Program-made: the position numbers and the translations under genes | Notes under the pieces: generated by a model | What the model saw: only the letters and a program-made list of their open reading frames with translations | The model's database searches: none | Told to the model about the DNA's origin: nothing | In this document: one piece after another, positions 9,449 to 57,300 of the stretch | Layout: every line of letters starts with the position of its first letter | How positions within the stretch are numbered: position 1 is the stretch's first letter | NCBI RefSeq assembly: GCF_963675165.1 | Contig: NC_087379.1 | Location: forward strand, 5,349,442-5,413,441 | Source: Halichondria panicea | Taxonomy: Eukaryota > Porifera > Demospongiae > Suberitida > Halichondriidae | Length of the DNA stretch: 64,000 nt | Direction of reading: 5' to 3'

Positions 9449-9722
9449 CCTGAGTATGAAAGTGAGAGAGATTGAGTATCTCCAAGCTAAATCTATAGTA
9501 CCTTATAGTTATGCCTCAACTCACACACTCAGGATATAGGTATACGATGTGTCTTTGCCATTTGCCTTTGCTATAATTATATTGAGACTTGAAGCCAATT
9601 AACCACGTCAACACGTGGACATGATTTACTACATGTGCACTTCCTCGAGGCTAGCTGGTGAAACTGATGCTATTCTGAGCTAGCTAGAAGCCTCCCCTGC
9701 TAAGATTTGGCTGGCTGTGACC
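9449..9722. promoter_or_regulatory. Divergent promoter between DPH1 and NTMT1
   Basis: 274 bp between the start codons of two divergent housekeeping genes, both acting on protein modification. Called from position. No specific motif is claimed. Confidence 0.5.
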
Positions 9723-28545: not shown

Positions 28546-28979
28546 AAGGCGGGAATTAAATATTGGGCACCGCCAAATAATAATAGGGAACATTAATTGT
28601 GTGTTAATTAGGTGGCCTGATTAGGTGGCCTGAGGTAGGTTTTGGGATTACCTTTGCATTACATATATTTAGGGGGGGGTATATATCCCCCTCCTCCCCT
28701 CTGGTATTGCAGTTATATTATGTGTATTGTAAGCCGTGTACTGAGCCTGTTGTTAATCTGCTATCTAGTGCTAAAATGTATGTATGATGCTAACAAATGC
28801 AATTTACATGTATGCAAGCAGCTGCCATGTCGCACAACTATTTGAGGCCTATTGAAATCGCGGTGTTATTGAGGAAATTAATTAATCATAAATTTCGTAG
28901 CCTTAAAATTAGTCAAAATGCGCATTAATCTAGCTCTACATTGTTCAATAATCCCTCCCACTTTCTCCTTGACCATGTG

Positions 28980-29370
28980 CTCCTGCTACAACTCATATAC
29001 AGTGTATTGTACAGTCATGTACATGCATGCAGTTCACATTACCTGTATACTCTCCGGTGTGTGCACGTGGGCGTATCATTGCTTTAACCATTTCCTCAGT
29101 GAGAAGATAGTCCAGTCACTCTCTGAGAACCTGAAGGCCTTGGCCCTCCACCTCCTGTCAGCTGGGCTCATCACTGTGTCCATTCTTGAGAAAACCAACG
29201 AGTTGAATGAGACCAAAAGAGAGAAGGCCACCAGACTGTATACTGCCCTGCTGGGTGGGGTCAAACACTACCCCCAAAAGTACCACCAGTTTGTCTCAAC
29301 TCTCAGACTCAACCCACTACATACTGACTTGGTCAAAGAATTAGACAAAAGTACAAAGTCATGCATGTAG
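28980..29370 (+). pseudogene. Orphan CARD-like exon of the ankyrin-ZU5 family
   Basis: 29099-29370 is about 90% similar to the last exon (47899-48197) of the first ankyrin-ZU5 gene: SEKIVQSLSENLKALALH, then TKREKATRLYTALL and HQFVSTLRLNPLHTDLV. The upstream intron is also related (TATACAGTGTATTGTAC; GTGGGCGTATCAT). A deletion removed the original acceptor and the first ~15 codons, so that TTTCCTCAG now joins TGAGAAG. The resulting ORF runs 28918-29370 without stops. No ankyrin or ZU5 exons are found upstream, so it is a leftover of a third family member. Confidence 0.75.
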
Positions 29371-34718: not shown

Positions 34719-37700
34719 ATGGACATACACGATGCTGCCAGTGCTGGTGATTTAAGTGGTTTACAAGATGCCGTCAGGAGGGGAGATGATGTCAACAGTG
34801 TGGATGAAGTAAGCTGCATGTGGGTATGTAGAGCTGAAGCCGCTGTGAAAGTCTGTTTTTGCTAGCGCTAGCTGTTGTGCTAATCAATAATTACACGAAT
34901 TTACGAGGTCGCTTGATTTCATGCTTTAATTAGTCTTGTCCCGACATATTCTTAGACAGTGTACCTCTCATTTGAGAGGTAAAGTCGTTCGTCACCATAC
35001 AGCCGTATTTCAGGCTATATAAAATATTAAATGAGGGAGCAAACCACTTCAGAACCATACTGTGGTGATATAGTTGATGCATGTGCTCTGTCACCGGAAT
35101 AACTGTGGACAAGAAATTCCATGGAACATTGAATTGGGCGGCCATGGGACTATTATTTGTGTTCGTGTGTGGATTTAATCTGCCATCCGAGCTAAGGTTA
35201 TAGATGTGTTTTCAAAACTCTCTCACTCTTGTAGATTGGGAACACTCCACTCTTGTTGGCAGCCAGTGGAGGTCACACTGACTGTGTTACAGAGCTGCTC
35301 TCCTCAGGAGCCGTGGTGGACCTGGCTGACAAGGTGAGTATCTGATACTAAACAGATGTGTCTATAGGACTGATGTGTCTATAGGCAGCATGTTCGTGAC
35401 CATAATATCACTCATTAGGAATTATTTACTACTAGTAGCCCAGAATCCAGCAATCTGATTGGTCAGTACAGGGTTTATATTATAGTTGTGACACATGCAC
35501 GAGTGCCACATGGGATATATTGGCTCAGTATAGTGACTTAGGCCCGAGGGCCGCAGGCCTCGAGGGCAAAGGCACTACTGAGCCAATATATCCCATGTGC
35601 GCAGGAGTGAGCTGTATAACAACTGATTTGTTGCATTCCTTGTGCATTCCTTTCCGCCGTACACATCACTCCTTTTATAGGACAACTAGTTTCAACTACT
35701 TGTGGTGGCTGTGGAATGCACCAGACGCATGAAAAACGTTTTCTGCCTACCACTGAATCTGTTTAACAGTGTTATACTTATAAAAGGGACCGTTTCAGGT
35801 TACTGGGTGGAGGATGGGCACTTTAGTCATACTATGCCAGTATCTAGATAGTGGCATAGTTCAAGGCTTGACCTGTGCCATAATTATGGCAGATATTTAT
35901 GGAACGCCGTTTGCAACAAAATTCAGGCAGAATGTGAGGCGTGTGCATCCAATATAAAATCGATTTTTGAAGATTGATTTTTAATAATCGATTTTTTACA
36001 GTTGATTTTCGATTTACACGTGAACGATCTTTGACAATCGATCTGATAATCGATTTTTGAAATTCGATTTTTGATAATCGATTTTTGATAATCGATTATT
36101 GAAATTCGATTTTTGATAATCGATTTTAGAACTGCTCTGAAGGTGGGCTGGGGGGGCCCCTGTCTAAAGCTGTATCACATGATACTATCCTTAGAGAAAT
36201 TTTGCATTGAAGAAGCCACTATTCATGACTTCTATTCTATCTGGAATCACCAAACTCTTTCTCAGCTCTTTCTCTAAGCAAGCTCTTTCTCTAAGCACAC
36301 ACAAGATGGCCAAATAAAACAGTGCTGGCGAGAAAGCATACAAAAATGGGTGCACAAAGAAACTAAATAAGTAGCACCAACTGAACAGTTCTGATTTTTA
36401 CTGTGACTTATGGCCCTCCTTTTTAATGGTTCCAAAAACAATAATGTTTCGCTCTTGCGTTATAGTCTATCATGTGAGATAGCTAACCAAGCCAAGCTTT
36501 GATTCCAGGCCGCGGAGAAGGAGTTTGTGCATGTTCTGAGTTTCAAGGGCGGCCTAACTGTAGCCTTGAATCCATAATCGGCCTGGATTCGAGACTAGTA
36601 TCAATCAATTGCGATTTTTGTAATCGATTTTTAAAAATCGATTATCAAAAATCGAATTTCAATAATCGATTATCAAAAATCGAATTTCAAAAATCTATTA
36701 TCAGATCAATTGTCAAAGATCGTTCACGTGTAAATTGAAAAAATCAACTGTAAAAAATCGATTATTAAAAATCGATCTTCAAAAATCGATTTTATATTGG
36801 ATGCACACGCCTATCACATTCTGCCTGAATTTTGTCGCAAACGGCGTTCCATAGATATTGGCACAGTGTTTCCTTTGATCTGCCCACTCAAAATGCAACA
36901 AATTTCCCATATTAACCTGTAAATTCTCATATGAACCTGTAATTTTCATGTTCACAACAACCATTCATTATTTTGTGTTTTTCAAACATGTTTTTTGTAG
37001 ATTGTATTATAAAAAACAATGAGAAGTAACTGTTCTGTTTTTGGTAATGACATAAAATTATAATGTTCAGTCGCTGTTAATACGTTGGTTGTTGGATGTA
37101 GGCATAGAGAGATTGATGGTAACGTTGCAGGTACTAAAGGTAAAGTTTGGAGGCATAAATTGACAGCAGTTGGTTTGTGAGTTCTGTTGCACTGCCATCT
37201 GTGAGTGATCAGTGTGTGCCAGTATGTTAATTGGCTTTACGTTGAGGATGTCTGAAACTGACTTCTTTTGACACTCAGAAGTTCTCTTGTAGCTGCGAAC
37301 TCCTTCCAAGCTTCGGTGTCCAGTTGTTTCCATTGTCATTTGTTCGTCCACTCCAGCGTTGTAGAGTCTAGTAGAAGCAGTTGCACGGAGAGAATGATTC
37401 GTTAGGTATTCCTTAATACTAGCTGCAGAGCATATAGTCGAGCCACTGTTTGGTCCAGTGTATTGTGGCCAATTGGTTTGTTCGAAAACCAAGTAGTTAG
37501 TAGGTGTTGGGTTTTTCAAGGCTCGAGAATTTTTAGGACAATCTTTTGGCAGGAGCTGCATGTTGGTAAAGCTGGAATAGCCGAACGAAGCATCTTTCAG
37601 GGTTTTCAGGATTGTTGTAGTGAGACACTACTTTTGGCTTGAGTTTCTTGCCTTTCAAGCCTCCTGCATGGTCGATTTTTAGATACGTCTTCTGTGTATT

Positions 37701-40700
37701 TCAAATACGACCGCTGTCCTTTTCAACTTCAATTACTTGAATTTGGCATGTTTCTGACCTCAATTGACGATGTTCGCTACCACTTCGTAGAGCAAAGTAG
37801 ACACCATTCATAAAAAGTACCGTATCAACCAGTGCTTGTGGAGTTTTGCATCCAAAAAGACCTTTGTTCCATAGAAGTTCTTCTTCTTCTTCTGTTAGAG
37901 GTTCAGCCTTCTTCTTTTGTGACCCTAGTCCAGCTCTCTGCAAGCGCTTCATTTCGGAGTCTAGGCACATTCGAAAGTCAGCAAAACAAGCATCCTTGAA
38001 CAGGTCAATCCCGGGATTTCCATTCCATCGCATATACCTCTGTATGCATGCCACTCACAATGTGGTGCAGTGTGTCAGGGGGAAATTCTGAGCCATCGTT
38101 CTTCCGAATCTGAAAAATGAAGCATTTCAGGTTCTCGGATAGTTCCTCGGATTTCAGGTCACTCAATAGTGGAATAACATCCCCATGGCACTTTAATCGG
38201 TACTCACACCAGTCATTCCATAGCTTGAAGCAGTACTTTGTATCTGAAGTTGTGCTATTAGGAATAGCACTCTTCTTCAATTTTTCCATCTCATTTTTTG
38301 TTAACTGAAGTGCAAATGCACGCACTTGCTTGGAGGTAGAGGCACTGCTTGAAGAAAGCTTCATTCACTTTGAGTTAGGTAGAGAAGATTGTGTAGGTTC
38401 TGTTGGCTTGTCCAGCTCCTCCTTCTTTCTTTGTTCTGTAGAAAGAGTAGCCAGCTCCGCCTCCACATTTATGTCGTAGAGGGCAGGGTCTATGGGCTCG
38501 GTCATTATTATGCCAAGTACTTCTTCAGAAAAGAGCTTGTCTAGGCCTAGGTCTTCGTCCGCGTCCATTCTTTCGGTTAGTTTTTGAAATGAACCTAGCA
38601 ACTAAACTCGTTAGATACTGTTTATCGGTTATCTATGGGAATTATAAGCCCGCAGGCACTCGTAGTACCCTCGCTTTGCTCGAGATACTACAGCAGGCCT
38701 TTGGGCTTATAATTCCCATAGATATCTCCTAAACAGTATCTAACTATTATGTACCGTACTCACCTGAAAATACGCTCCCTTAAAATTTACCCCCCCCTAG
38801 CCAGAGCAGGAAATGTATTGCAGATCTAACAGGAGCTATATTATTGGTTAGGGGGGCGTATTATAGATAGAAAATACCTCTGTTTTATCAGAGGAGGTTG
38901 GCCACGCGTCATCATTCATGTGACGTCTCTTCTCACGTTACCATAGATACTGAACAACTGTAAAGAAAGTTATGACTTCTCTTACTTCGCTGAATTTATA
39001 ACACCTGACTAGTTGTCTAGTTGGTCCAGAATTAGCTAGGCTTCAGCGATGCTGTATATGTAGCTTGCACTGTACTGACTCACAAGAATCTAGTAATTTA
39101 ACACTGTATGCACTGATAACTTGTCAGAATTAATGGAGGGGATCGCTGGGGATCAGGTTAGTTAATGAAAGTTTTATATTCAAAGTAGCCAGAGAGACAC
39201 ATACATTTTTCCACGTGTATGTGATGGAGACAGAATATAACATCTTTTCATGAGGTCCAGGACTAAAGTAAGCCATGAAACACTACAATGCAGACTATGC
39301 TATTTTTCTAAACACAATTTGTATAATTATTATGCCTCGGTGCGCATGAGGTATATACGGTAGTGTGTTTGTGTGTGTGTGTCTGTGTGTCTGTGTGTGT
39401 AGACTGCTACAGCTGCTCAAGGATCAATGAATTTAAGAGTTTCTATAGGCTTCTAGTCATGTTTTCTTGGAATTTAAATTGTGGATTTGCAAAATACTTA
39501 GTTCTCGAGTTATGCCTAGTTTTGCTTACTTGGAATGCCATTGCAGCCTTTTCAGAAGAGCACGTAGCCAAACTTGTTTACCGAGTGTTACTACTCTACT
39601 TAGTAGTTAGCTCTGCACTAGAACGCTAGCTATTCGTAGCTGTAAGAGTGAGAAGAGAGCTGCAAGGCTCTGCTGATGGCAGCCATTAATTTTAGACTTG
39701 AAATTTGGCATCGATCGTTTTTAACAACAATCATGGTCGATCATTGCAGCATGCAAATTAAAAAAATGTTCATCATGTGTATAAAATTAAGCTATTAGTA
39801 TGTATGCTATGTAGTTTTGGCATCTCCACCGCGAGGCATCAGCACCTGCGGTGCTTTCATTAATATTATTATTCATTTGGCAGGAAATGCAAAATACTGA
39901 AACTTCTACATTAATTGTACATCTACAAAAACATGCAGTTGCTTCTATCCTTGAAGATCATTCAACAAGCCATCTGATAGACTTCTGTTTCCATTCAGCT
40001 CCTCGACGGTGTGGAATTTCACTCATTCATTGTCAACAATTGCAATCAACAATAATAACATCATTATACGAAGCAAACTATAATAACTACCTCTTCTAAT
40101 AGATTTTGAGCGAAACAAAACATGGCGAGAGGCATTAGCACAGCGCAGCTTGCAATTAACACTCGTTTTGTATGGACAAGCAAGAGTTAGCTAGCTACAG
40201 ACAGATCTACCGGCAGTTAGTCGTTACGGTGGCCGAGAAGAGTCACCTGCCTTCGCCTACCACCACAATTAGTTGCGCGCGCTTAAAACTAATTTAATCT
40301 GCACACGGTCAAAGGTCAACGAATCATTCTACATTATAATTAACGCAACTTGTTGAAGTGTCCATTGATGCAGGTGGGTTGGTCCTACTACTATCCTATA
40401 TTATAGTGATTCATTTATTTAGACACTCTTCAAGAGTAGCTCTAGGACCAAATCCAACCTACCTGCACTGTGGCCATTTCAGCAAAAGGAATACGTTGCG
40501 TTAATTAGAATGCAGACAAGATTCTTTGACCTTGTGCAGACTGACCTGAACATTTGTTGGTTGTTCTTTTACTTTATTTGTGTTGTTAAAAGTTACTCTC
40601 ACTCTTGTAGAATGGGCGTACTCCACTCTATTGGGCAGCCTGGGGAGGTCACACTGACTGTGTTAGAGAGCTGCTCTCCTCAGGCGCCGTGGTGGACTTG

Positions 40701-43700
40701 GCTAACAAGGTGAGTGTCTGATACTGAACTGATGTGTCTATAGGCAGCATGTTCGTGACTATTTACATGTATTGCACTCACCTAAAAATACGCCACCTTC
40801 GAATTTAGACGGAACAAACTAGCTAGCTAGCTACAGATCTAGATTTACCTTAGAGTTAATGTTCCAGTATTTCCTTTGAAGATGTGTTTTGTAGTACACT
40901 GATGTGATAATTTTACTTGTGTCTTGCACTGCACTGGAGGTCTGAGAATGTTTTTGCGAGGAGTAAAGGAGGGCGTCTTTTCGAAACAGTTTTCTTAATT
41001 ATGATTGCGCATCACAGATAGCTGCATTTTTTGCTCGTTGCCAATCCTCTTCCTTTACTTTATTTATTCTATCACACAGATGTGCATGTTGTTAAAAGTT
41101 ACTGTATATGCTCTCACTCTTGTAGGATGGGTACACTCCACTCTTGTTGGCAGCCATGGGAGGTCACACTAATTGTGTTAGAGAGCTGCTCTCCTCAGGA
41201 GCCATGGTGGACCTGGCTAACAAGGTGAGTATCTGATACTAAACTGATGTGTCTATAGGCAGCGGACTTTAGGAAAGGCAATACAGTGGAACCTCCATAA
41301 AACGGACACCATTGGGGAACAGCCTTTTTTGGCCGTTATAAAGATGTGTCTTCCTTGGGAGGTTTCAATTGCCAGCTATGTATGCTCTATGAGCCATTTC
41401 TTGCTGCAAATAGATCTTGGAGCTTTGCTAACTGCTTCTTTAGTAGCTCATATAAGCTTTGAAAAGGCTGTAGGGACAAGCTACAGCTAAGTTTTCACAA
41501 TAATTACTATATCTCAGCTGTTCCTAATAAACTTTTGATACTGTGTAATGAATAACATCTATCACTATAATTATTACCAAGAGTGCATAAGAAGAGAAGA
41601 GTATCGAACTACTGATACCTCTACACAAACACTGTGCATAAAGTAACGTGACATCCTGTCAATTGCACGTGAGCAACTCGCAATTGATGACGTTTACGCA
41701 ACGCACAGAATTTGTTAATAGTGAATGAAGAGAAGAGGATCAGCTCGACTATATTGTCTCTATTTAGATGATTTTTGTGAAGAGATCGTCTCCTATCAGT
41801 GTGCAGTGAGCGCTCCATGAGCTCTGAACGTTAAACGCGAACAACTAGCTAGATTTGTTCGACACCACACCCCTAAAAACGTCACGGTTAACATTTACTA
41901 GGAGATTACTAGTAAGTTTACGATATACTTTATCACGTGCGAGTCATGTTACTTTGTGCACAGTGTTTGTGTAGAAGTATCAGTAGTTCGACACTCTTCT
42001 CTTCTTATGCACTCTTGATGTTATTCATTGTAAATTTGATTCACAGTTTATACAACAGCATGTGGTTTTAAGTGGAGTAGCGTACTCTTCCTAATGAACT
42101 CTTAACAGTATAATTATACATGCAGTTGTATAGGTGTACAATGATTAGTACATTCATGTGCTGAAAAAATTATATGTACATTAATTGATTCATAATTCTC
42201 TGTGAATTTTTAATTGTTTAATTTAAACTGCGTACTAGCCATTTATGTGTACTGCATTAGCTGGCTTAATACGTATGACTGTTGCGCTTTGGAAATGTAG
42301 AGCATGCAGTGAATGTCTGTATTGTTCAATGTACATTCATATTGTGTTGTCACTGTCTCCACTCTTGCAGGGTGGGGACACTCCACTCATGCTGGCAGCC
42401 CTCTGGGGTCAGAAAGATGCAGTAAAGGAGCTTCTCTCATCAGGGGCTCCCGTTCTCTGCACTAATAATGTGAGCACATTTACTTTATAGAGTACATAGT
42501 TACGTAGCAAACAGCTTTACATGTACTGTACACCTATACCTCTTACAGTAGTTAATGACTGAATAGAACTGTCATTTGTACCTAAATAGAAATAACCAAC
42601 TTCTTAACATGCAATTACCGTTGCCAGTATTGCTCTGTCAGCAAAGTACATGTTATATGCATTAGACCACTTTACCTCTTACAATGTATGATCACCATCA
42701 CAGGATGGAGACACTGCTCTGATGAGAGCCAAGGAATCACATCACCCTAATCCTTCAATAATAAAGTTGCTTGAGGAAGCTGCTGAATCACATGTGAGTC
42801 CGTACCTCAATAATGTATACACTGATCATGATCGAGTGTTTTAGTTTAAGAGCTTTTTCGTGTGGAATAAGTATAGGATAGACTACACCTAAGAGTAGAA
42901 TATGCGTCTACGTAACCTCCGCGGTTGCGGTTAGCCCGAGGCGCAAAGCCGAGGGAATCTAACCGTAACCAAGGCGGTTACTAAGACGCATATTCTACGA
43001 GTGGGTGTGGTCTATCTAACTTGGACTTCATTGCGCATGCGCGAGGCGTGGTTATAAAAAAATAAAAAAAAAAAAAAAAAAAATGGTTATAAAAAGCCAT
43101 GTTTGGTGCGTAGCAACAGAAATTGAATTTGTGCGAGCTGGACGAGCTGGAGAGCTGTGAGAGACACCAGTTGACAGAAAAAGACGGCTTCAAAACAATG
43201 AAAAACTACAGTAAAGCTTGTGAAACGCTTCTTGAAGATAACTGGAAAGAACAGACAAGTAAAAAGAACCTAGAACTATGCTAGAACTGACTGCAACACT
43301 ACAAGAAGAAGAATGAAGCTCTGTGGTGGAGTGGAGGGGGGTATAGAGCAGACTGGACCGGCATGGAACCTTAAAAAACTCAATAGAAAGTGTCAAGCGA
43401 CTGCTAAAGTGTTTTTGATGCTTCCTGGCCCCCCTTGCCCATGCCCAACTAGAAAAAGCAATACAAAGCAACAGTGGACATGGATATTGACTGAACAGAC
43501 TATTGCATTCTGTGTTTTTTATAATGTTTTTGTTATCTTCTTGTCACTTTCACTAAAAATTTCATTCCAACTTTTGAGAACTTCCTGCAAATTATTTGTT
43601 ACTTCCTGTAGAATATGCGTCCATTTCCTGTAGAATATGTGTCCACTTCCTGTAGAATAAGTACCTTCCTGTAGATTATGCTTCCATGTAATCTACTGTT

Positions 43701-43982
43701 TTTAGCCAATCAGATCAATTACAGATGATGTAATGTAGTCTAAATTAAATATACAGTATACATACATGTACACTATATAAGTGTCTTACATGTGTTTACT
43801 TTTATTTAAGCACTGATAACCTCAGTACTTTTCTATGGGAACAAACTGATACATTAATACTGTCAATGATGTAATTTAGTGGTCTTAACTGTATGGAGTG
43901 CAAACTACAGTTCCAATATTACACACACCCGAATAAACATGAAACCATTACATGTGCTCACCCCCCCACACACTCACACACA

Positions 43983-44048
<66 letters not shown>

Positions 44049-47000
44049 CACAGTCACGTGTACCAGTCCTTCCCAAGAACTGGACTGTTGTCACTGACAC
44101 AGAAACGTGAGTGACGATTGCACAGTTGAGTCACTAACTTTATGAATGTGAGTCAACTTTAGGAAGAAGCCAGTCTACCAGAACAAGGCAGCAGGGGAAA
44201 CCCTTTCCACACCACCTGGATGTAAGTGTGTGCTTGTGCTGTATCTAGCACATGGTTCTGTGTGTTTATCTCCTGTGTATAGATCCCCTGCACCAAACCT
44301 CTGCACACCCTGATGTCACTTTCTATGGCGTGCCTCAAGAGAAGGAGTTCACCTCCAGTGGTGGCCATGCTGACTTTGATAGTGGAGTGCAAGTGACTGT
44401 TCCAGCTAATGCTGTCCCATCAGGGACCTCTGTGAGCATTAAGGTACAACCCAGTCTCGCTCCCAAGGATGTGTTTGTGATGCCTGAGGGCATTCAGTCT
44501 GCCAGTCCGTCCTACTTGATCTCTGGTGAAGGTCTAAACGGAGAGGTGACCCTGAGCATGGAGCATCATGTACGAGTGTCCACCCATCAAGAAGCTGATG
44601 ACCTCCTTTTTCTCCAAGCTGACTCGTCTCCCAAGAGATCTGGTACAAAAAATGTGTACGAGTACCAGGAGATACAAGAGGCAAGGTCAGTGTTCACTCC
44701 TGGAGGGAATACCGGGAGACTGACACTGGGCACACGACTGAAGAAGTTCTTTAAAATTGGCCAGAGGAGGAAAAAAGGTAAGTATTTGGAAATGTGAATC
44801 ACTTCCAATTCAACAAAATGCATGTACATGCAGGCAAGACCGACAGTAATCTCTACACTGTCAGAGTCTACCGGTCTCCTCCACACACAACTGGTGACAG
44901 GATGGCTCTTGTCATTGTCAGCTACTTTAACCGTCTGTTTCTTGATGTACGTACATTGCAGTTTTGTGATTGTACGTGAATAACTGTTTACCTCCATGTG
45001 CAGTTCTTGCAGAGGTTTGAGGTTGACATCATTCCCCGAGAGTATCCACACTTGTCAAGTAGCCCTGCTGATAAGACAATTAAACAACCTCTTTGCTTTG
45101 TCCAAGTTGATGCAGTACTGGAGCTAGTCTGTGATCCAGCCTGGAGGAGTGTGCCTGACCAGAGAATGGTGAGTGCTTTCAATAGTTAGAAGAAAAACCC
45201 TTATATCGTATGTGACTTTTCCACACTTTTTTGTGTCTCCTATTAATTCATTTTGCCGTGTTTGCAGATTTCCCAAGAAGAAGTGGACCTGCCAGTGATT
45301 GGTAAGTTCTCGCCAGAGGAGCTTCAGTGCTACCCACCCAGGATAGTGTGTCGGTTCTTCCCTGAGCAAGGAGCTGCCTCCTGCACCACATGCACTCTCT
45401 CACTGTATGGCTTTGACAAGCCAGTCAGTATGGACATGGCACTGCTCACTCCTCAGAGATCAGTGGACACTAAACAACTCAAGGTGTCTCACTCAACCTC
45501 TGTTAAAGTCAATATATGAATGTTAGATACACTTCACTTGTGCCATCAACCCAATGTTCTGCATCATCCTACACTTGTTAAATTTTGGCTAATGGATGTC
45601 TGTAAAATGTCCTTTACAGTATATGTTGCTTCCTTGAGACCTACGTCTGTACTGTGTGTACTGCATGTGGACATTCTCAATTCGTTATAATGCATGTACC
45701 GTATAGCAGGTTATTTTCGTACGGTAGAAGTTTTCGTATTTTTCATATTGTATACATGTACATAATAACATTATCATTCGAAATTAAAACTGAGCTACCG
45801 CGATAGGTTCAACGTCACTATCCTGAGCTGTACGAGTATTTAGAATACGAAATATTTGATTGGGCAGTTCATACGAACATTTACCCGTATGTATGTGATT
45901 GTAGGAAGCCACTGAAGTACTGAGGAGAACAGTTGGGGAGATGACCACCTCACAGCTTGGCTCTACTGTGGAGACTGTACTGTCACTAATGGAGAAAATG
46001 ACAACTGCGCTTCAGTGAGATGTCTACTATCTTAATGTAGCACTGTATTTACAATATCTCCCACCTCAGGTCATCTTCTCTGAGTGAGCTGACAGCCCAC
46101 ACTGACTCCATACGGACAGAGATAAAGGCTGTCCTTGTAGTGACCAGGAGGGTTGTCCAGGAGTGCACAGTACAGAGCATCAGTGAGAACATTGAAGCCA
46201 GTCTCTCTAAGATGGAGACTTTATCTCACCAGCTTTGTAAGGTTGCCAAGGTCAAACTCAGATACTGTCAAGAAGGTGAGAACGTGTGTTTATGATATCA
46301 AGTGTTAGCTCTCATTCTCAATGGTACAGACCAGTCAGAGGAGACAGCTGCTCTTGTTGACCTGGTGGAGAATGGAGCTAATCTGTTGAGAGCTGTGGAC
46401 TGTCTACTCAGGGACATCCACACGCTCAGTGGAGTCAGTGGTGAGTGTATTTCAAAAGGGGCAAACCAAACCCAAAGAGTGGGCGGGGAGGAAAAAACTT
46501 AATTCTGTAATGGCAGTTTTTTGCTCTTCCCAAAACTTTGCTTTATCTAGAGGTAATGACGTCCTGAAAGAATTTAAATGCACAATGCTAATAATTATAG
46601 CCCATGGTATTTTGTCGAAATCGACAGTTTTTTGGCTACTCCCAGAACTTTACCAAGACGAAGTGATACGCCTTGAATGTTTTAGTTTTGATATTGATTG
46701 TGAAGTTATGTATGACCTCCCAAAAGAAGCTTGCTTAACTGGAAAATATACATTCAGAGGCGGCACAATGCCAACCTTCAAATTTAGATATCATAATTAT
46801 TTGAATTTCTAAGAGGGAGCCACATCCAAGGGGGGGGAGCAAAAGTCTAACTTCCTCCTGGCTGTATTATAATTATGTTCCATAATCCTTTCCACTTCCT
46901 CCTATTGTGTACTACCAGCCATATACAGTGTATTGTACATGTATTGAGTCTATTTGTTCACATTACATGTACTTAGTGCTGATCACATGATCTCCAGCCA

Positions 47001-48197
47001 ATCAGCTTATCTGAAAGTAGTCAGGTGACCATGGATTAAATAACTTAATTCACACTTAAGTGTGCTTTAAGTTGGTTTGTTAATGCACACTTTTATCAAA
47101 CAATCATAATACAAGCAGATTGAATCTGAATGTCATCATAATAATACAAGCAGATTGAATGTGTACATACAAGCAAAGCTGAAAAGTATTAGAAAGTTGA
47201 ATGTTATTGTTTCGACTTGTTTCATGTGTAGTAAGTGTACCGAATTGCTGACTTGACCATAGCATCGCTTTTTCGTCTGGAGAAATAGGCTCAGCTTGCT
47301 TCGAAGATGTACATACCTGTACCTAAGCCAGATCCATATAATCGTTTCATCAAAGCTTCGAATATCATAGCTTTCCAAAAGAGCAAACCAGATACTCATT
47401 GCCATATAGTTTGCGCACAAAGTTTCCCATCCAGTAAGCCAGATCAGCTGGAGGCATATCCAGTAGTGGGATCGGGACTGTTGGTCAGCAAGAGAAATAA
47501 GTCGAGAACATGCCCAGTCAGTCCAGATAGCTTTAGATCGTATCTCCTTCTTCTTTGCATCAGTTACTGGATCTACAAACCTACTAAAACTTACTATTAC
47601 GTCTAGCTAGCTAGCTAGCCACCAGCAACTGATTTAAAATGTAGCTAGATCTAGCTGCCACGAGGCTAGAGCTCACGTGACAGCACTAAATCCTTTAGAA
47701 CACACCTAGCCAAGTCACGTGTTTTAATGCTGGTGCACTCGGATGGCCTCTCGGTTACGTAATGCACTCGGCTGCGCCTCGAGCACCATCCTCGGCACGC
47801 AGATTAAAACACTTAATCTTGGCTAGGTGTGTTCTAAATAATACTTAGTCTCCAGTGTGTGGGCGTATCATGCTCTAACCATTTCCTCTCTCCTGCAGGT
47901 AACGCTGGCTACAGTGTGCTTATGAGCTGCAGTGAGAAGATAGTCCAGTCACTCTCTGAGGACCCGAAGGCCTTGGCCCTCCACTTCCTGTCAGCTGGGC
48001 TCATCACTGTGTCCATTCTTGAGAAAACCAACGAGTATGTGAATGAGACCAAGAGAGAGAAGGCCACCAGACTGTACACTGCCCTGCTGCGTGTGGTCAA
48101 ACACCACCCCCACAAGTACCACGAGTTTGTCTCCACTCTCAGACTCAACCCACTACACACTGACTTGGTCACACAATTAGATAGCAAGTACATGTAG
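34719..48197 (+). CDS. Ankyrin-(WW-like)-ZU5-UPA-CARD-like protein
   Basis: Sixteen exons: 34719-34808, 35235-35333, 40611-40709, 41125-41223, 42371-42469, 42704-42793, 44048-44106, 44163-44221, 44283-44777, 44834-44946, 45004-45168, 45268-45483, 45905-46014, 46070-46275, 46330-46440 and 47899-48197. They give 802 codons with every junction in phase. Residues 1-192 are about six ankyrin repeats, one per exon. About 197-231 is a WW-like motif (LPKNW...VYQN...STPP) lacking the second Trp. 232-397 is a ZU5 domain (FTSSGGHADFDSGVQVTVPANAV). 397-561 is a UPA-like region (LYTVRVYRSPP, PLCFVQVDAVLELVCDPAW). 562-704 is a helical region of unknown type. 705-802 is a CARD-like fold (KIVQSLSEDPKALALHFLSAGLI..EKATRLYTALL..FVSTLRL). 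No HFS-type self-cleavage motif is seen. By domain logic it is a cytosolic adaptor or sensor for death-fold signalling. Confidence 0.82.
35507..35599. repeat. Short hairpin element
   Basis: CACATGGGATATATTGGCTC and its exact complement frame a GC-rich centre (GGCCCGAGGGCCGCAGGCCTCG) in ankyrin gene 1 intron 2. Confidence 0.85.
35888..36862. mobile_element. Large foldback element with ATCGATTTTT-rich arms
   Basis: About 270-bp arms in inverted orientation, from TATTTATGGAACGCCGTTTG to CAAACGGCGTTCCATAGATA. They share GCATCCAATATAAAATCGAT, ACACGTGAACGATC and a series of ATCGATTTTTGATA repeats. The centre (about 36130-36590) has no transposase ORF. Confidence 0.88.
37067..38601 (-). pseudogene. 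Crypton-like tyrosine recombinase (DUF3504 type), decayed
   Basis: Three frames on the minus strand together show a tyrosine-recombinase protein. An acidic N-terminal part (38601-38365) ends in an in-frame TGA directly before ATG 38364. A helical core-binding part follows (YCFKLWNDWCEYR). A one-base shift near 38040 leads to IQRYMRWNGNPGIDLFKD..., an in-frame TGA at about 37700, then GGLKGKKLKPKVVSHYNNPEN and RCFVRLFQLY. A further one-base shift near 37565 leads into the catalytic end NHSLRATASTRLYNAGVDE, TGHRSLEGVRSYKR, which has the Arg, His and Tyr expected of the active site. It lies inside intron 2 of ankyrin gene 1 on the opposite strand. Related domains occur in domesticated animal genes (ZMYM, QRICH1 families), but the breaks here argue for a dead copy. 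Confidence 0.82.
38611..38743. repeat. Short hairpin element
   Basis: TTAGATACTGTTTA...TAAACAGTATCTAA with inner arms CTATGGGAATTATAAGCCC. The centre is CCTCGCTTTGCTCGAG. It lies 10 bp upstream of the recombinase relic. Confidence 0.85.
39330..39861 (+). repeat. Interspersed repeat 'R', forward copy
   Basis: Starts TATGCCTCGGTGCGCATGAGG with a TG/TC run and ends CACCTGCGGTGCTTTCATTA. Body shared with the copies at 24616 and 52274. Confidence 0.8.
40338..40507. repeat. Foldback element directly upstream of an ankyrin exon
   Basis: TAATTAACGCAAC...GTTGCGTTAATTA outer arms and GCAGGTGGGTTGGTCCTA...TAGGACCAAATCCAACC inner arms. It ends about 100 bp before exon 40611. Confidence 0.75.
41547..42029. 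repeat. Foldback element in ankyrin gene 1 intron 4
   Basis: Arms of about 100 bp: AATGAATAACATC and AAGAGTGCATAAGAAGAGAA on the left, inverted on the right, including GTATCGAACTACTGATAC. No ORF. Confidence 0.85.
42881..43740. mobile_element. Element 'G', long copy (860 bp)
   Basis: Ends GACTACA...TGTAGTC, flanked by TA on both sides. Contains a palindrome bounded by GTAGAATATGCGTCT at the left and a repeated CTTCCTGTAGAATATG motif at the right. Its relative lies inverted at 53379-54033. Inserted in the intron before the WW-like exons of ankyrin gene 1. Confidence 0.8.
43967..44047. repeat. (CA)n microsatellite abutting an ankyrin gene 1 acceptor
   Basis: About 38 CA units ending in the acceptor CACAG at 44043-44047. 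The following exon (44048) encodes the start of the WW-like motif. Confidence 0.95.
46441..47898. other. Last intron of ankyrin gene 1
   Basis: Contains two sense ORFs without recognisable domains (46429-46812 and 47307-47606, the latter with ATP/PEST-free basic sequence) and a hairpin at 47695-47837. Parts (46480-46990 and 47855-47890) align with the last intron of ankyrin gene 2 at 63350-63665. Confidence 0.6.
47695..47837. repeat. Short hairpin element
   Basis: TTAGAACACACCTAGCCAAG and its complement at the right end. The centre carries CTCGGATGG and GCGCCTCGAGC, the same architecture as 35507 and 38611. Confidence 0.8.
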
Positions 48198-48366
48198 TTT
48201 TTCTACACGTAACGTACATGCAAAATTATAATTGTGCATACCATCATTCTTTTTTTGTACTTAAGATTGAACAAAAAATTCTTATCTCATAACATTTTGC
48301 ATGCATGCTGGATGTCATTAAGGAGGGGTCCAAATCAAAGGGGTGTGGCTAGTATCAAACTTGAAA

Positions 48367-51300
48367 ATGGACATACACAAGGCTGCCAGGGCTGGTGACT
48401 TGACTGCTTTACAAGATGGCATCAAAGGGGGAGATGATATCAACAGTGTGGATGAAGTAAGCTAGTTTGTGGGTATGTAGAGCTGAAGCTGTGAAAGTCT
48501 GTTTTTGCTAATTAAAGTAATAATATTATTTATACCAATTTACGATGTCGCTTGACTTGATTCCATGCATTATTCTTGTCCCCAAATATTGTGTGTCTAC
48601 CTCTCCAAGACCATACTGCCGTACGTATTTCAGGTGACATAAAACCACTTCTTGGTTGATGCGTGTATTCTGATGTAGACATGGAATATTTGGTGGGACT
48701 ATATTAATTTTTGTTCGTGTGTGGATTTTAATCGGCTGTCACTCAATTACGAGCTAGCTAGCTTGCTGAATGGTTTCGGTTACATGCGTGGGTGGATGAT
48801 GTCAGATGCACTCTCTATTATGTCAATCATGTGTCTTTACTATTATTATTTATGTTCTATCATACAGATGTGTTGTCAAAAGTTACTGTATGCTCTCACT
48901 TTTGTAGGGTAGGTGTACTCCACTCTATGTGGCAGCCAGGGAAGGTCACACTAACAGTGTTAGAGAGCTGCTCTCTTCAGGAGCCATGGTGGACCTGGCT
49001 AACAAGGTGAGTTCTGATACTAAACTGATGTGTCTATAGGCAGCATGTTCGTGACCATCACATCATTAGGAATTATAACTCACCCGAATTTACGTCCCCC
49101 CTAGCCAGAGCAGGAAATGTATTGCAGAGGTATTTTCTATCTCAATAATACGGCCCCTAACCCCATCTAATTATGGCAGGTTCAATAATAGCTCCTGTTA
49201 TAGTTTTTATATACTGTCTAAATAAGGCGCCGCTTTTTACTTGTCAAAACACGCGGGAAATTTGAGGGAGCAAAACGGATGGTTTTTAGCAAGTCTATGC
49301 CTATATATAGAGTTTATATAGAGTTAGTATTTTCTTCGAAGATGTATGTGTTTTGTAGTACACTTTTGTCATAATTTTACTTGTGTCTTGCACTGCACTG
49401 AATGTCTGAGAATGTTTTTTGTACGTCAGCACTAAAGTAGAGCGTCTTTTTGTAATAATACAATAGCGCATCACGGATAGTTGCATTTTATGGTTTGTCA
49501 CAAGTTACTTATGCTCTCATTCTTGTAGGATCGATGGACTCCACTTTATGTGGCAGCCAGGGAAGGTCACACTGACTGTGTTAGGGAGTTGCTCTCCTCG
49601 GGAGCCGTGGTGGATCTGGCTGACAAGGTGAGTATCTGATACTAGGGTCATTCCATATCAATTCAACGAAATTTAAAACGTGACGTCTTCAGAATTGCAC
49701 GAAACTTGGTATATGTATCTCAGAAAAATTTTGGGTTTGTAAACAATAATGGCTTCTGAGATTGAAAAAATGCACCCACTTTTAGAAACTGGCTGCTGTT
49801 AGTTAAACTGTAACTTTCTAACCATTAACATTCAAAACTAAAAATGTATATCATCTTGTTGCCTAAGAAATTCCGCATCATTTGGTATAGTTAATTGCAT
49901 GTACACGTACAATTATGGACATCACCGGGATTTTATGTTTTGGTATGTAACAATGTTAATTGTACACTAAAGCTAGTGCTTATAAATTTGTTAAATGGAG
50001 GCTGCAAAAACTAAAAATGAAGTTGTACAGTTTATAATAATTATAACAATAATTATGTAGCACATCGCAGATATCCCTTTATTTATGGTCTATAGCACAC
50101 AGATGTGTTATCAAAAGTTTTTGTATGCTCTCACTTTGTAGCGTGGGTGGACTCCACTCATGAAGGCAGCCAGGGGAGGTCGCACTGACTGTGTTAGGGA
50201 GCTGCTCTCCTCAGGAGCCGTGGTGGACCTGGCTGACAAGGTGAGTTATCTGATACTGATGTATCTATATAGGCAACATACTGGAATTATTATTCATTTA
50301 AGAATTTGTTGCATATACATACAATTATGCATGGACATGGCCGTCATTTCCACCTATAATTATGTGTGGACAAGAATTCCATTATGAAAATTAATTGGGT
50401 GGGACTATTATAATGTTTATGTGTGCATTTTAATTTGCCGTCGCTCAACGACATGTAACGAGCTAGCTTGCTGAAAGGTTAGGTTAGGTTTAGATCGAGT
50501 TAGTGTTATGTATACTTTCGTATGTGGGTGGATGAGGTCAGATATAATGCCAATCCCGTTCCTTTATTTTTATTAACGGTCTATCTGTGTTAGCAAAAGT
50601 TACTGTATGCTCTCCCTCTTGTAGAATGGGTGTACTCCACTCTATTGGGCAGCCAGTGGAGGTCACACTGACTGTGTTAGACAGCTGCTCTCCTCAGGAG
50701 CCGTGGTAGACCTGGCTAACATGGTGAGTATCTGATACTAAACTGATGTGCCTATTATATATCAAAACTAAAAAACATTTGCAATGTGAACGTTGCTAGG
50801 ATTGCCAGGAAAAGGAAAGCGCGAAAAAGCGAAGAAACAAGAAATTCGGCAAGTGCATAACTCCAATCCGTTACAACTTCATTCACATGTACTGTTTTAA
50901 GCAATATTTTTTTGTTTGTTTTTGTGCTTTTCCTGGCAAATCCTTTAGTAATTTTTATGAATCTTTTGCAAGGTATATATGTAATGTGTTTGTGATGTTT
51001 TCCCTTACAGTGTTGAGCAAACATGCAAGTGTTGGATGTGTGGGTGGATGATTGTGAATTCTTATTTCTTATTCTCGGTTTATTTTTACCTAACTTGTGT
51101 TTTGATTCTAAAATTGTTATCAACAGTAGGCCACTCGACTGTACATGTTCATGACATTGTAACGGATTGGAGTTATGCACTCGCTGAATTTCTTGTTTCC
51201 TCGCTTTTTCGCGCTTTTCTTTTCCTGGCAATCCTAGCAACGTTCACATTGCAAATGTTTTTTAGTTTTGATTCCCTTTCTTTTTCATTACAGTAGTACA

Positions 51301-54300
51301 TTAATGATAAGATAAATGTGACGTTGATTAATTTTAGCCTCGTTCCCAGGCCTTACTTTTTCTTGCTGTTGTCACTGTTCATCCATAAACATAAGAAAGA
51401 CATAGTGAGGCAGCAAAGAAAGAAATGGGCGTACAGTTAAGAAAAAGTAAGGCCTGGTTTGGGAAATCGCGTGATCCACAAGGATTTTTATGAACGTGGG
51501 CGATATGTAGCCCACAATCGTGACGTAAGGTATTCTCCCACGCATTCAGAGTAAGACTGTACTGCACTGTACTGCACTGTACTGAGACAACCACCAAGCT
51601 GTGCTGCAAGTCAGATCAGAGAACCAGCGTGGCCAGCTCTGGTGGCAGTAGCTACCTGCTATATGATAATGATGACTAAGCTATTCTACTAGAAAGACAC
51701 AAGAAAAGGTAATAGTGATAGAATCTAAACACACAATCTAGACTAGTAGATCATCTAGCTAAGCCTAAGGTATAGCTAGCTTAGTGCTTGCAAACTTCCA
51801 GTTCCAAGTCCATGTCCAGCTTGCTGCAGGCAAAGTTTTATTAGTCGTAGACCTCTGCGTGGGCAGTCCAACATCTCTAGCTCAGTATGCCCACGCTCAT
51901 TTTCACCCTTCTACCACCCTTCTACCCTCACGCGACTTCCCGATACAGGCTCTCCTTTTTCCTAACTCTACGTCTATTTCTTTCTTTATTCCTCCAATTA
52001 ATACCGTATTTTATCTCATTGAACGAATAATACAGTATTTTATCTTATTGAACCATTGTGATAAAGAACAGAAAAAGGAGAGCCTGTGTAGAGGCTAGAT
52101 TAATTTGTCATCGTCCTGTAATCAGTCTTAATAAAGTTGAAGATAATATAATTATAAAAGTGGTCGTTGGACAGAAGTAATAAATCGAAAGTGCAATACC
52201 TAAGAGGAACAAGAGGAACATCAAGAAGCAAGAGAAGTTCAAAAAGTACTGGAATAAACATTATTATAATATTTATGCCTGGGTGCGCATGCGCAAGCGA
52301 GGTATACGGTATAGTGTGTTTGTGTGTCTGTCTGCGTGTGTGTGTGTGTGTGTGTAGACTGTTTCAGCTGCTCAAGGATCATTGAAGTGCAAGTAAGAGT
52401 TTCTATAGGCTTCTAGTCATGTTTTCTTGGCTTGGTATTTGTGGATTTGCAAAATAAAGCTTCGTTCTCGAGTTATGCCTAGTTTTGTACTTGGAATGCC
52501 ATTGCAGCCTTTTCAGAAGAGTCCGTAGCAAAACTTGTTCACCGAGTGTTGATACTCTACTTAGTAGTTAACTCTGCACTAGAACGCTAGCTATTGGTAG
52601 CTGCAAGAGTGAGAAGAGAGCTGCAAGGCTCTGCTGACTTGCAGCCAGACTTGAACCTTTGGCATCGATCGTTATTAACAACGATCATCGTCGATCATTA
52701 CCCACTCTTTGAGTTTTCCTGGATTCTGCATGCAGCAAAATTAAAAATGTTCATCATGATAATTAATCAATGTGTGTATAAAAGCTAGCTATTAGTAGCT
52801 TTATGTTATGTAACTTTGGCACCTCCACCGAGGCATCAGCACCCGCGGTGCTTTCATTTATTCATTTATCGATGTGGATAATAATTATGGCAGCCATGTT
52901 TATACTGTACTATACTGTAGATATGTGGTAGTCAGTGCATACGTCTATAGCATAAATAGCATACCTGAAGTGAGAGAATGGAGAGCTGAGCTGAAGAAAG
53001 TGTTTATTGATGTCACAGCCACGCCCACCTCATAAGTTGCCATGTGCGTTGCTGTGGCAGTCATTTAAAGATGCGGAATTGCGTAGGTAAGAAAAGTGGA
53101 GCCTGAGAGGTCATCTGCCTCTTGGAAGCGAACGCAATTCTGAGAAAAACGCCCACGGTCCGGGTTCTAGTCGACTAGAGGCTGTATCTAGAATCTTCTG
53201 AACATGTCTGTACAAGGAGGAAATGCTTTCCAAGAATGTTACTTACTTACTTACTTACTTAGTCAGTCAGACGAAACACGGTGAAATATGAAAATAGTGC
53301 AATTTTTCAAATATCAATATTAATGCATGTGAATATTCATTGACTATAATATCACACATTACACAGATAAAAGCTTTTGACTACATTACATCATCTATAA
53401 TTGATCTGATTGGCTAAAAACATTAGATTACATGGAAGCATAATCTACAAGAAGGTACTTATTCTACAGGAAGTGGTACAGGAAATGGGTGCCTATTCTA
53501 CAGGAAGTGGACACATTCTACAGGAAATGGGCGCATATTCTACAGGAAGTGACAAATAATTTGCAGGAAGTTCTCAAAAGTTGGAATGAAATTTTTAGTG
53601 AAAGTGACAAGAAGATGACAAAAACATTATAAAAAACACAGAATGCAATAGTTTGTTCAGTCACTATCCATTCTTTCCATGTCCACTGTTGCTTTGTATT
53701 GCTTTTTCAAGCGTTTCACAAGCTCTACTAAGTTTTACTGTAGTTTTTTGTTGTTTTGAAGCCGTCTTCTTGTCTTTTTCTGTCAACTGGTGTCTCTCAC
53801 AGCTTTCCAGCTCCGTCCAGCTCGCACAAATTCAATTTCTGTTGCTACACACCAAACCTGGTTTTTATAACCGCGCATGCGCATTGAAGTCCAAGTTAGA
53901 TAGACCACACCCACTCGTAGAATATGCGTCTTAGTAACCACCTTGGTTACGGTTAGATTCCCTCGGCTTTGCGCCTCGGGCTAACCGCACCGCGGAGGTT
54001 ACATAGACGCATATTCTACTCTTAGGTGTAGTCTATATTCTATACATCTATCCAGTTAGTTTCTTGATGTGGCCTTTCCCTGCAGAAATAGAGCAGTCTA
54101 AACACGAGTCAAAATTTGTGCAATAATTGAAAACACACACTACTGCACTGTCAATCCTATGTACAACCTACTGGTTGTACTAATGTTCGTGACATTAATT
54201 TTAAGGAATTGTTTGCATGTATGTATAGTCGACATTTTATCTTGCTGAGCTGCATACATTTTCTATGTGTTGTACACTAAATGAATATACATGTATTAAA

Positions 54301-57300
54301 AAGAATTACTTGTTAAACGAGGCCTACAAAAAATTTGTGCAGTTTAATAGCATAGTAAATCACAGATACTGTATATATATGCTTGATCAGAGGCCGTGGC
54401 TACTAAATTTTTGCTGGCAGAGGAGGTTACAATTCAAGAGAGGCATTTATTAGGCTTACTAACACCCCATGCAGCTAATTCAGTTTGTCATCAAAACTTA
54501 CTCCAACTCTGCCATGAGACTAACCAGCTGCTACTGTATGACTGCCACCAGAGGATGCGTGCACGAATCACCACAAGTTCAGTGCATTGATGTCATTGGG
54601 GTCACATCATAATGTCCTGGCCAATATTACACTAAGTACTTGTAGTGATTCGTGCACGTATGTCGGACCTACTGTGGGCTGCCACATGCAGAGACATAGC
54701 CTCAAAGTTCACTGAGGCTATACTATTTGAGCGATTACTATTGCACTGAAGATGGGCTGTAGAGAGAGGCTATACTATTTGAATGCGGAAAAAGCGGCCT
54801 CTGATCAAGCATATATGGTTGTTGCATTTTTTGCTCGTTGCCAATTCCCTTCCTTTACTTTATTTATTGTCTATCACCAGAGGAGGTCCGACATGCGTGT
54901 ACGAATCACTAAAAGTTCAGTGCAATGTGGCCAGGACGTTATCACGTGACCGCAATGACATCAATGCACTTAACTTGTAGTGATTCGTGCACGCATGTCG
55001 GACCTCCTCTGTCTACCACACAGATGTTAGGGTCTCACTCTTGTAGGATGGGTGGACTCCACTTTGCTTGGCAGCCAGGGAAGGTCGCACTGACTGTGTT
55101 AGACAGCTGCTCTCCTCAGGAGCCGTGGTGAACCTGGCTGACAAGGTGAATATCTAATACTAAACTGATGTGTCTATAGGCAGCATGCTGGAATTATTTG
55201 CATGCACGTACAATTATGCATGAATGGACATTAATTGCCTTCATTTTCATAAAATTCTGTGGACAAGAATTCGGTGTGACTATTATTTGCTTGTAACAAT
55301 CTGCTGTCGCTTAATAACTACGAGCTACATGTACGTAGCTTGCTGAAAAGTAGGGTTAGTGTTATGTATACTTTCGTATGTGACGTCAGATGCAACCACT
55401 CTATGAAAGTAAAAAATACCAATCCCCTCCTTTACCGTATTTAAATGTCAGATGTGTTGACAATAGTTACTGTATGCTCTCACTCTTATAGGGTGATGGT
55501 ACTCCACTCTATTGGGCAGTCAGGGGAGGTTACACTGACTGTGTTAGAGTGCTGCTCTCCTCAGGACCCGTGGTTGACCTGGCTGACAAGGTGAGTATCT
55601 GATACTAACTGAGCGGTCTATAGGTAGTATTTTCGTGACCATCACATCATAATTATGCTACATGTAGTGATGGTTGTGGGTGGTCCCTATGAGATTCCTA
55701 AGGCACTAACATTGACATTATACGTACAAATACAGCATTTTCAGTATAGGTTAATTACCAAAAAAAAAAAAAAAAAAAAATTACGTAACCTACATATAGC
55801 TGCGGAGAATTCTTTCAGCGTAATACCTAATTTGATACTGTAAATAACCACAAATACCGTATCGGATGCAAAACTCCAATGGTACATGTACATGTATAGT
55901 GTGGTGCTTTAGGTGAAAATCGCCTCCTGCATGGGTGTAGACTCGCAAGCCACTTTGCTCATCATTGAACAGGGGCGGGAGAAAAAGGACTGCCTGGTGA
56001 CTCTGGGACAGCTTGTGTATCTCAAAAATGCTATTACGTAATAATGTCACATGCAAATGATGCGGAGTTATAGTCAAGAGTTCAGAGTCAAATTTAGTTA
56101 AAGACATGCATACAGATCTATCTATAGCTAGCCAACAATGTAGGTTTTTTATGAGTATGCTCTGTGAGGAAACAATCCTCCTCAAAGTTTCGGAAGCACC
56201 GACTAGTTTTATATCATTTCTTGAGCTTGAGCATGTCATTTCTTTCACACAATGTGCTATCTTACCCTTATAGGTAAATTTGCTCGATCCTTGTGCCACA
56301 ACTTGTGGATTAGCATGCATGGAACAGCTGATGGACGTAGAAATCTTGGCAGCCCTTCTTTGAACCGAGTGACAGCAATTTGAGACAGCTTGTGTCTGAC
56401 AACTACTGTATGACTGTAGCAATTCAACTGCATGCTGCCCTCTGCTGGTCTCTTATATGACTATTATATCCTATATAATTATAGCTGAATGCCTGATGTT
56501 GTCATCAATCTTCCCTTTTCTAGCACTAGCATCCATTCTCAATCTGTATAGCTAAGAATCCCGCGAGCACTTGTACATGTTGTAGGCTACGCAATTCTAC
56601 TACTTTACACTATGTTTGGATCAGATAAGGTAGAAAAACAACAGAAGTGGTTCATGTGATTTCTACATTGAAGTCAATCTATACATATACTGGCTCTGAA
56701 GCAATCTTGTGTTTCGCTCTGAAACTCCCGTGAAACCCGGAAACTTATTGTATCCAATGCATGCTTCTTAAAGACCCCTCCAATTAACACTTAACCTAGT
56801 GCCCCCTGATGGTGAGTATCATTTGGAAAATGTTATCGTGAAGTACATAAACATGTAGCTAGAGGTGTACACACAGAATCCTTGTGTACAGAGCAGATTA
56901 CAAAAGGACCGTCTTACGCTGGGAATCACATCTCGTGCAAGTTTGCAAAGCATGACCTTATATGCAAAACCGATAAAGTGGGTCTGCGGGCGAGTGTTAA
57001 TTGAGCTGACGGTGCACTTTTACTAGCACATAGGTGAATAATTAAGATTTAAAAGCTACAGCTAGCTAGTTAGCTATAGGCCTGGTAATAAGCTCTCTCT
57101 TCTAAGAACCCCAGTAAGACTCCCTATATTGCAAAAACAGAACGCCTAGTATGTTTTAGTGTAAATTTGCAAACTTTCTCCGTACAAAGTGACTGGATAT
57201 GCTCCATGGAGCTATAGTAGGGGATATCCCCCTTTCCTGTATGACACCCTGCTGTTGTGCTTGTGTTCTCACTATTGGATGTGGTTGAAAATGTAGAGCA

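Follow-up and report, generated by a model that had tools for sequence, protein, structure and literature searches.

How animals without adaptive immunity produce many specific recognition surfaces is an open question, and it is raised in concrete form by a 64,000-nucleotide stretch of DNA from the sponge Halichondria panicea (NC_087379.1, positions 5,349,442 to 5,413,441; the whole stretch is referred to here as the window), which lies on contig C3 of a 131-Mb genome. The window carries two tandem genes, A and B, predicted from reading frames and splice signals, which have a common layout in which an array of ankyrin (ANK) repeats is followed by a ZU5 exon, linkers and a terminal exon. In these genes nine repeats are each encoded by a separate 99-nt exon, and the initial annotation had read them as a recognition face that is diversified on a conserved scaffold. 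This reading has been supported by site-wise selection tests and by mapping of the variable positions to the concave face of the repeat; the variable codons have been shown to evolve under diversifying selection and the strict framework has been shown to be conserved. The one genome provides natural replicates, with near-identical introns and framework and differing binding codons, and yields a defined list of contact positions together with a clear prediction, namely that the concave face binds variable ligands. With such a system, the mode of evolution that fungal NOD-like receptors (NLRs) show in their ANK repeats would be found in animals too.

Diversifying selection on the hypervariable ankyrin exons

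All nine exons are present, each as one open frame with AG before it, GT after it and phase 0 on both sides, so that any number of them can be joined in frame. Eight of the nine starts had been placed correctly and the third lies at 41126, not 41125; three of the exons belong to gene A and six to gene B. Their ANK identity is given by Pfam (Ank_2, 2e-38; Ank, 9e-35) and by agreement with the 33-residue repeat pattern TPL..AA..G....V..LL..GA.

Genome-wide, a 27-base word from framework codons 18-26 gives 260 matches with up to three mismatches (194 forward, 66 reverse; control 0), a 21-base word of the downstream intron gives 119 with up to two, and the ZU5 exon gives 43, of which 40 were used, a fragment of 52 aa and two matches with only 28-30% identity having been dropped. 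The exon sample comes from the loci that were read, which are part of the family, and comprises 141 exons of at least 30 bits, with 132 in the core class (>100 bits). Four core exons were dropped because the GT donor was absent (one is also frameshifted), which leaves 128 intact exons that are open in frame and have a splice signal on either side (119 on C3, nine on contig C6), representing 87 distinct DNA and 85 distinct protein sequences. Because loci were picked partly by the codon 18-26 word, conservation at these codons is biased, and they are omitted from the bootstrap figure for the framework given below. One array, at C3:8353769-8362709, has hypervariable exons mostly spaced by about 477 bp with few codes (mainly DCMAFG, DRYVFG and DRMAFG), of which DRMAFG resembles a recombinant of the other two.

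Among the 87 distinct exons, the most variable codons are 1, 3, 7, 8, 11 and 12, with entropies of 2.2-3.0 bits, and codons 17-20, 32 and 33 form a second tier. Positions 2 and 14, which the initial annotation had counted as variable along with these six, are mostly fixed instead (G in 78/87 and H in 82/87, respectively). The framework, described there as almost fixed, is not free of change: over all pairs, the six codons account for 17648/39271 (45%), the second tier for 29% and the other 21 codons for 26%. The proportions of replacement and silent differences (pN and pS) are 0.516 and 0.174 at the six codons, 0.214 and 0.077 in the second tier, and 0.026 and 0.097 in the strict framework. 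In the nine window exons, silent sites are likewise less divergent than the variable codons, with pN 0.438 and pS 0.146 at the six codons and 0.079 and 0.137 at the other 27. The silent divergence of the exons (about 0.1) is of normal size, since the common tail of genes A and B has a synonymous divergence (dS) of 0.092, with a nonsynonymous divergence (dN) of 0.028. After Jukes-Cantor correction, the six codons show a replacement divergence 8.4 times as high as the silent divergence of the framework in the 87 exons and 4.3 times as high in the nine, and a bootstrap over 19 genomic clusters (60 replicates) gives 4.8 (4.2-5.7) for pN at the six codons over pS of the framework, and 0.31 (0.18-0.39) for framework pN/pS with codons 18-26 omitted.

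Site-wise selection has been assessed by a custom fixed-effects codon test on two trees. On the exon tree, codons 1, 3, 8, 11, 12, 18 and 33 are diversifying, with 1, 11 and 12 passing Bonferroni correction, and codons 6, 13-16, 26 and 30 are purifying. On the flank tree, which was built for 93 sequences from intron flanks and the other 27 codons with the six codons left out, codons 1, 3, 7, 8, 11, 12, 18 and 33 are diversifying, and 1, 8, 11 and 12 pass Bonferroni correction. Replacement rates at the six codons on this tree are 6-34, as opposed to intron-flank means of 0.9-1.05 (single flank sites at most 3.7), and would be inflated if flanks were homogenised or exchanged separately. Homogenisation of flanks would raise silent rates too, which are zero at codons 1, 11 and 12, but 1.8 and 2.6 at codons 3 and 7.

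The ANK numbering of PMC8415598, with TPLH at positions 4-7, fits the hypervariable exon; it classes positions 1, 2, 3, 8, 11, 12, 32 and 33 as concave and positions 4-7, 9, 10, 17, 18 and 21 as core. Under these classes all of the six variable codons except 7 are concave, and the diversifying sites, rather than being scattered over buried positions, are concave in 6/7 cases on the exon tree and 6/8 on the flank tree (hypergeometric P 1.7e-4 and 6e-4). Concave positions have a mean entropy of 2.06 bits, versus 0.17-0.59 for the other surfaces and the core. Position 7, which is usually His and is variable in the hypervariable exons, is described in the same source as core, partly accessible from the concave side and enriched in contacts (PMC8415598).

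Exon and intron divergence and competing explanations

Among 124 exons with full flanks, 20 groups have identical 120-nt flanks (60 nt per side). Twelve of these groups contain two to ten exon sequences each, giving 75 pairs in total, in which 264 differences fall on the variable codons and a single one is silent, with one, two and three bases changed in 100, 107 and 57 cases; the other 27 codons of the same pairs also carry 264 differences, of which 66 are silent. Ten of 66 measured repeat units, located in several arrays at 7.78-8.06 Mb, are exactly 786 bp long. In their introns 15/687 sites vary (nucleotide diversity, pi, 0.0057), and at the six codons pi is 0.421 and silent differences are 0/186; 18 of the 786 bases carry 47% of all differences, and some pairs of these units have identical code. 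In the ten exons, silent sites outside the six codons also diverge more than the introns do (3 of about 23 vs 15/687 segregate, Fisher P 0.018), which argues that the introns have been homogenised while the exons have not, and the exons of these units therefore seem to be older in ancestry than the introns between them. For primate opsins, an exon whose divergence peaks above that of the converted introns on either side is treated as a mark of selection resisting gene conversion (PMC3924837).

Shuffling of codon blocks is suggested by mosaic-looking exons in three adjacent units (C3:7877257, 7878043 and 7878829) and by complete four-gamete squares between blocks, a result that recurrent change could also give. 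The pairwise homoplasy index (PHI) test for recombination on sites outside the six codons is null (P 0.555), so that the case for shuffling is made by these examples and by the mismatch between exon and intron divergence. Transfer of whole exons as cassettes across intron contexts was considered among the full-flank exons and rejected, as the single pair (at most 1 nt apart, with dissimilar distal flanks) is part of a segmental duplicate of the window.

The explanation regarded as probable is that selection keeps binding faces different while introns are homogenised, in an ANK-ZU5 recognition family. In this account the two window genes are members of an expanded animal gene family with the order ANK array, ZU5, linker and terminal domain, and each repeat is one 99-nt phase-0 exon with a well conserved framework and about six highly variable codons, mostly on the concave ligand-binding face. 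Selection would maintain the differences between paralogous binding faces, while unequal exchange and gene conversion would homogenise the introns and much of the framework. The family would in this way form a germline repertoire of distinct binding surfaces, where binding of intracellular non-self (or self/non-self) ligands would be relayed through a Death or other terminal domain.

Several observations weigh against selection acting on the faces in this way. Eight of the 20 identical-flank groups contain one exon sequence only, a single group supplies 45 of the 75 pairs, and the null PHI result gives no help to recombination. Both window genes have their ANK exons repeated in a segmental duplicate (C3:5555359-5573284), which has changed 0/54 variable codons and has two framework replacements in one exon, with the flanking pieces read showing 0-1.7% mismatches. 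Codon 7 does not reach significance on the exon tree, codons 3 and 7 have a high pS, the diversifying codon 18 is a core position in the classes of PMC8415598, and the flank-tree rates are subject to the inflation noted above, which the favoured model itself implies. The penultimate ANK class of exon also varies most at the six positions, though more weakly (pN 0.336 vs 0.126, nine distinct exons), and positions 1, 3, 11, 12 and 33 are among the most diverse of ANK repeats generally, according to PMC8415598. The positions are generic to ANK repeats; the family is distinctive in combining a conserved framework with more replacement than silent change.

The last two observations, that the six positions are largely among the most diverse in ANK repeats and that the penultimate class varies most at the same places, also favour relaxed constraint, in which folding preserves the framework and the exposed face is free to drift neutrally. 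Neutral codons would, however, change silently as well, as opposed to the 1/264 and 0/186 silent differences seen at the six codons; the third bases of codons 1 and 8 are near-fixed (T in 86/87 and G in 83/87), unlike neutral drift, and the six-codon replacement rates exceed the mean intron-flank rate, albeit with possible inflation by flank homogenisation, all of which makes relaxed constraint quite unlikely. In a control of ordinary ANK repeats from the same genome, which is too small a sample to carry weight (six repeats of locus L001), entropy is 1.48 at the six positions vs 1.33 elsewhere, with no concentration; the regular expression for such repeats matched none in locus L002. A mutation hot-spot was also considered and rejected, as the six codons show no matching rise in silent change. 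Rewriting of the variable codons by a targeted mutator or a templated copying system would fit the many unit pairs which have 0-2 intron differences in 687 bp and differ at three to six of the six codons, often by 2-3 nt per codon. Other pairs with near-identical introns nevertheless differ at none (7956644/7957430 and 8055425/8056997), and the window duplicate has retained all 54 variable codons. The near-fixed third bases argue against a mutator, being unexpected after untargeted hypermutation, and the greater divergence of exon silent sites outside the six codons points to homogenised introns instead, so that rewriting of this kind is considered highly improbable.

Diversification may also have served internal partners, such as cytoskeletal or membrane adaptors, as in vertebrate ankyrins, rather than non-self. 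Ankyrins have an ANK-ZU5-Death layout, and their ANK arrays bind many partners. The sponge genes have this same layout where the terminal domain is Death-related, and Ankyrin-1 and Ankyrin-2 are among the top PDB matches for the ANK array of gene B, while tandem expansion, replacement in excess of silent change and differing terminal domains are judged unusual for housekeeping adaptors; internal partners are accordingly held to be unlikely as the cause.

Gene architecture and terminal domains

Gene A spans 34719 to about 48198, and gene B runs from 48367 to beyond 64000, the end of the window. Gene A opens with an ANK cap and three hypervariable ANK exons, followed by the penultimate ANK exon and the last, ANK-like one, and then by two short exons, ZU5, linkers and the terminal exon; the layout of gene B is the same, but with six hypervariable ANK exons. 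The tails of the two genes, from the exons before ZU5 onwards, are 93.7% identical over 508 aa, whereas their terminal exons are completely different. AG/GT is found at the checked internal splice sites; an exception is the short exon that comes first after the gene A ANK region, for which the acceptor is provisional. The predicted features are:

34719..34808, +, gene A exon 1, N-terminal ANK cap (open frame from ATG, GT donor)
35235..35333, +, gene A hypervariable ANK exon 1 (99 nt, AG/GT, phase 0)
40611..40709, +, gene A hypervariable ANK exon 2 (99 nt, AG/GT)
41126..41224, +, gene A hypervariable ANK exon 3 (99 nt, AG/GT)
42371..42469, +, gene A penultimate ANK exon, less variable class
42704..42793, +, gene A last ANK-like exon (C-terminal cap)
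44283..44777, +, gene A ZU5 exon (Pfam ZU5 23.6 bits, marginal against a cut-off of 21)
44834..46440, +, gene A linker exons, common to gene B (tail alignment)
47899..48198, +, gene A terminal exon, domain type A (without convincing Pfam or PDB match)
48367..48456, +, gene B exon 1, N-terminal ANK cap
48908..49006, +, gene B hypervariable ANK exon 1 (99 nt, AG/GT)
49529..49627, +, gene B hypervariable ANK exon 2 (99 nt, AG/GT)
50142..50240, +, gene B hypervariable ANK exon 3 (99 nt, AG/GT)
50625..50723, +, gene B hypervariable ANK exon 4 (99 nt, AG/GT)
55047..55145, +, gene B hypervariable ANK exon 5 (99 nt, AG/GT)
55492..55590, +, gene B hypervariable ANK exon 6 (99 nt, AG/GT)
57363..57461, +, gene B penultimate ANK exon, less variable class
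59221..59310, +, gene B last ANK-like exon (C-terminal cap)
60838..61332, +, gene B ZU5 exon (alignment to the gene A ZU5 exon)
61389..62973, +, gene B linker exons
63751..64000, +, gene B terminal exon, Death-related (ends at the window edge; paralogue matches to Pfam Death)

Paralogues of these genes have been shown to carry either of two terminal domains, which are dissimilar and of which one is Death-related. For the type of terminal exon seen in gene B, six of seven aligned paralogues match Pfam Death (best E 9.8e-7); the first member of the alignment scores 20.2 bits, below the cut-off of 22.6, and the incomplete window copy alone is without a Pfam match. Comparison of this alignment with PDB profiles returned mainly designed and natural pentatricopeptide repeat (PPR) proteins, which are sums of very weak repeats and were rejected as homologues. 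No Death match was found in the terminal type of gene A, and Pfam, NCBIfam, and PDB sequence and profile searches gave no convincing family for it, with weak chance-level matches only; a possible resemblance of type A to CARD has no convincing Pfam, PDB or profile match behind it. Relatives of type A occur at no fewer than 102 places in the genome and those of the Death type at 150 or more. When each of the 40 ZU5 exons is paired with the first terminal exon lying within 7 kb, 15 have type A, 15 the closer Death type and six a more distant one, and four have none, in a tally that used 38 of the at least 102 type A and 41 of the at least 150 Death places, so that the four without a terminal exon may be misses. 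In three of the Death cases a type A exon also lies a few kb further on, and there may thus be a choice between two terminal types within one gene.

Within the 796-aa gene A model, Pfam gave no UPA match after ZU5, where remote homology is still possible, no NACHT or NB-ARC, and no TRADD-N, and a sequence search of the stretch from ZU5 to the linkers gave no PDB match. A second copy of the type A terminal exon is located at window positions 28882-29370, upstream of gene A, with 86% identity over residues 11-94; it is perhaps a remnant, as no ANK or ZU5 exon of the family was found before it within the window.

Putative recognition role and known systems

No report of a hypervariable ANK-ZU5 family was found in the literature searched, which takes in few subscription papers. 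With vertebrate ankyrins, UNC5 and PIDD1, the sponge genes have in common ZU5 and, in gene B, a Death-related domain, as well as ANK repeats before ZU5; they differ in that the sponge repeats are young and near-identical with a hypervariable face, that a type A terminus follows 15/40 ZU5 exons, and that no UPA match is found. PRDM9 offers another comparison, and differs from the ANK-exon family in being one gene with DNA-binding zinc fingers, whose repeats lie inside one exon. What the two have in common is tandem near-identical repeats under positive selection, with a horizontal dN/dS of 2.7 described for the PRDM9 zinc-finger arrays (PMC5120217).

The nearest precedent is found in fungi. In the ANK repeats of Podospora anserina NLRs, five positively selected positions have been described, all but one of which are concave, and concerted evolution has been proposed (PMC4986451, PMC12222747). 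These NLRs and the sponge genes share near-identical repeats with few selected concave positions, varying repeat number, proposed concerted evolution and combinatorial assortment of signalling domains. Unlike the fungal ANK, WD and TPR NLRs, the sponge genes have ZU5 and a Death-related domain, without NACHT or NB-ARC in the gene A model; each sponge repeat occupies a separate phase-0 exon flanked by introns, and many paralogues of one genome show the pattern. The sponge family works like the fungal diversified-repeat receptors but is not a member of them.

Another related example is in the sponge Amphimedon, where large expansions of Death-TRADD-N proteins, often with ankyrin repeats, are reported (PMC8195603). 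Lineage-specific expansion of proteins with Death-fold and ankyrin domains is common to both, whereas the Halichondria genes have the order ANK-ZU5-terminal domain, diversification shown at the level of sites, and no TRADD-N match in the gene A model. Sponges given microbial molecules have been found to raise ankyrin-, Death- and CARD-domain genes (PMC6208332). This response and the Amphimedon expansions favour an intracellular recognition receptor, which is the likeliest role, with ligand and function both putative. The likeness to immune receptors drawn in the initial annotation is an analogy, to which the Death-related gene B terminus seen through paralogues, the differing terminal domains and the fungal NLR precedent would lend themselves. 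A more specific proposal, advanced tentatively and at somewhat less than even confidence, is that these are NACHT-free, germline-diversified intracellular ankyrin receptors, comparable to a natural library of designed ankyrin repeat proteins (DARPins), with interchangeable single-repeat exons, about six selected contact codons, around 40 ZU5 genes, symmetric exons that are perhaps alternatively spliced, and at least two terminal domains, which would act in immunity or allorecognition.

Mobile-element-like sequences and conserved genes are also present in the window. Transposase-like frames lie at 31602-33067, just upstream of gene A, with Pfam matches to TNP-like RNase H and GTP-binding insertion domains. 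The long intron within the gene A ANK array contains a tyrosine-recombinase-like frame on the minus strand (37067-37627; Pfam Phage_integrase, 4.4e-9) and, at 35893-36858, nested long inverted repeats with 73-nt arms that are 99% and 120-nt arms that are 91% complementary. Conserved genes at 1377-2366 and 8153-9502 encode a UbiA prenyltransferase family member and a diphthamide synthesis protein, respectively.

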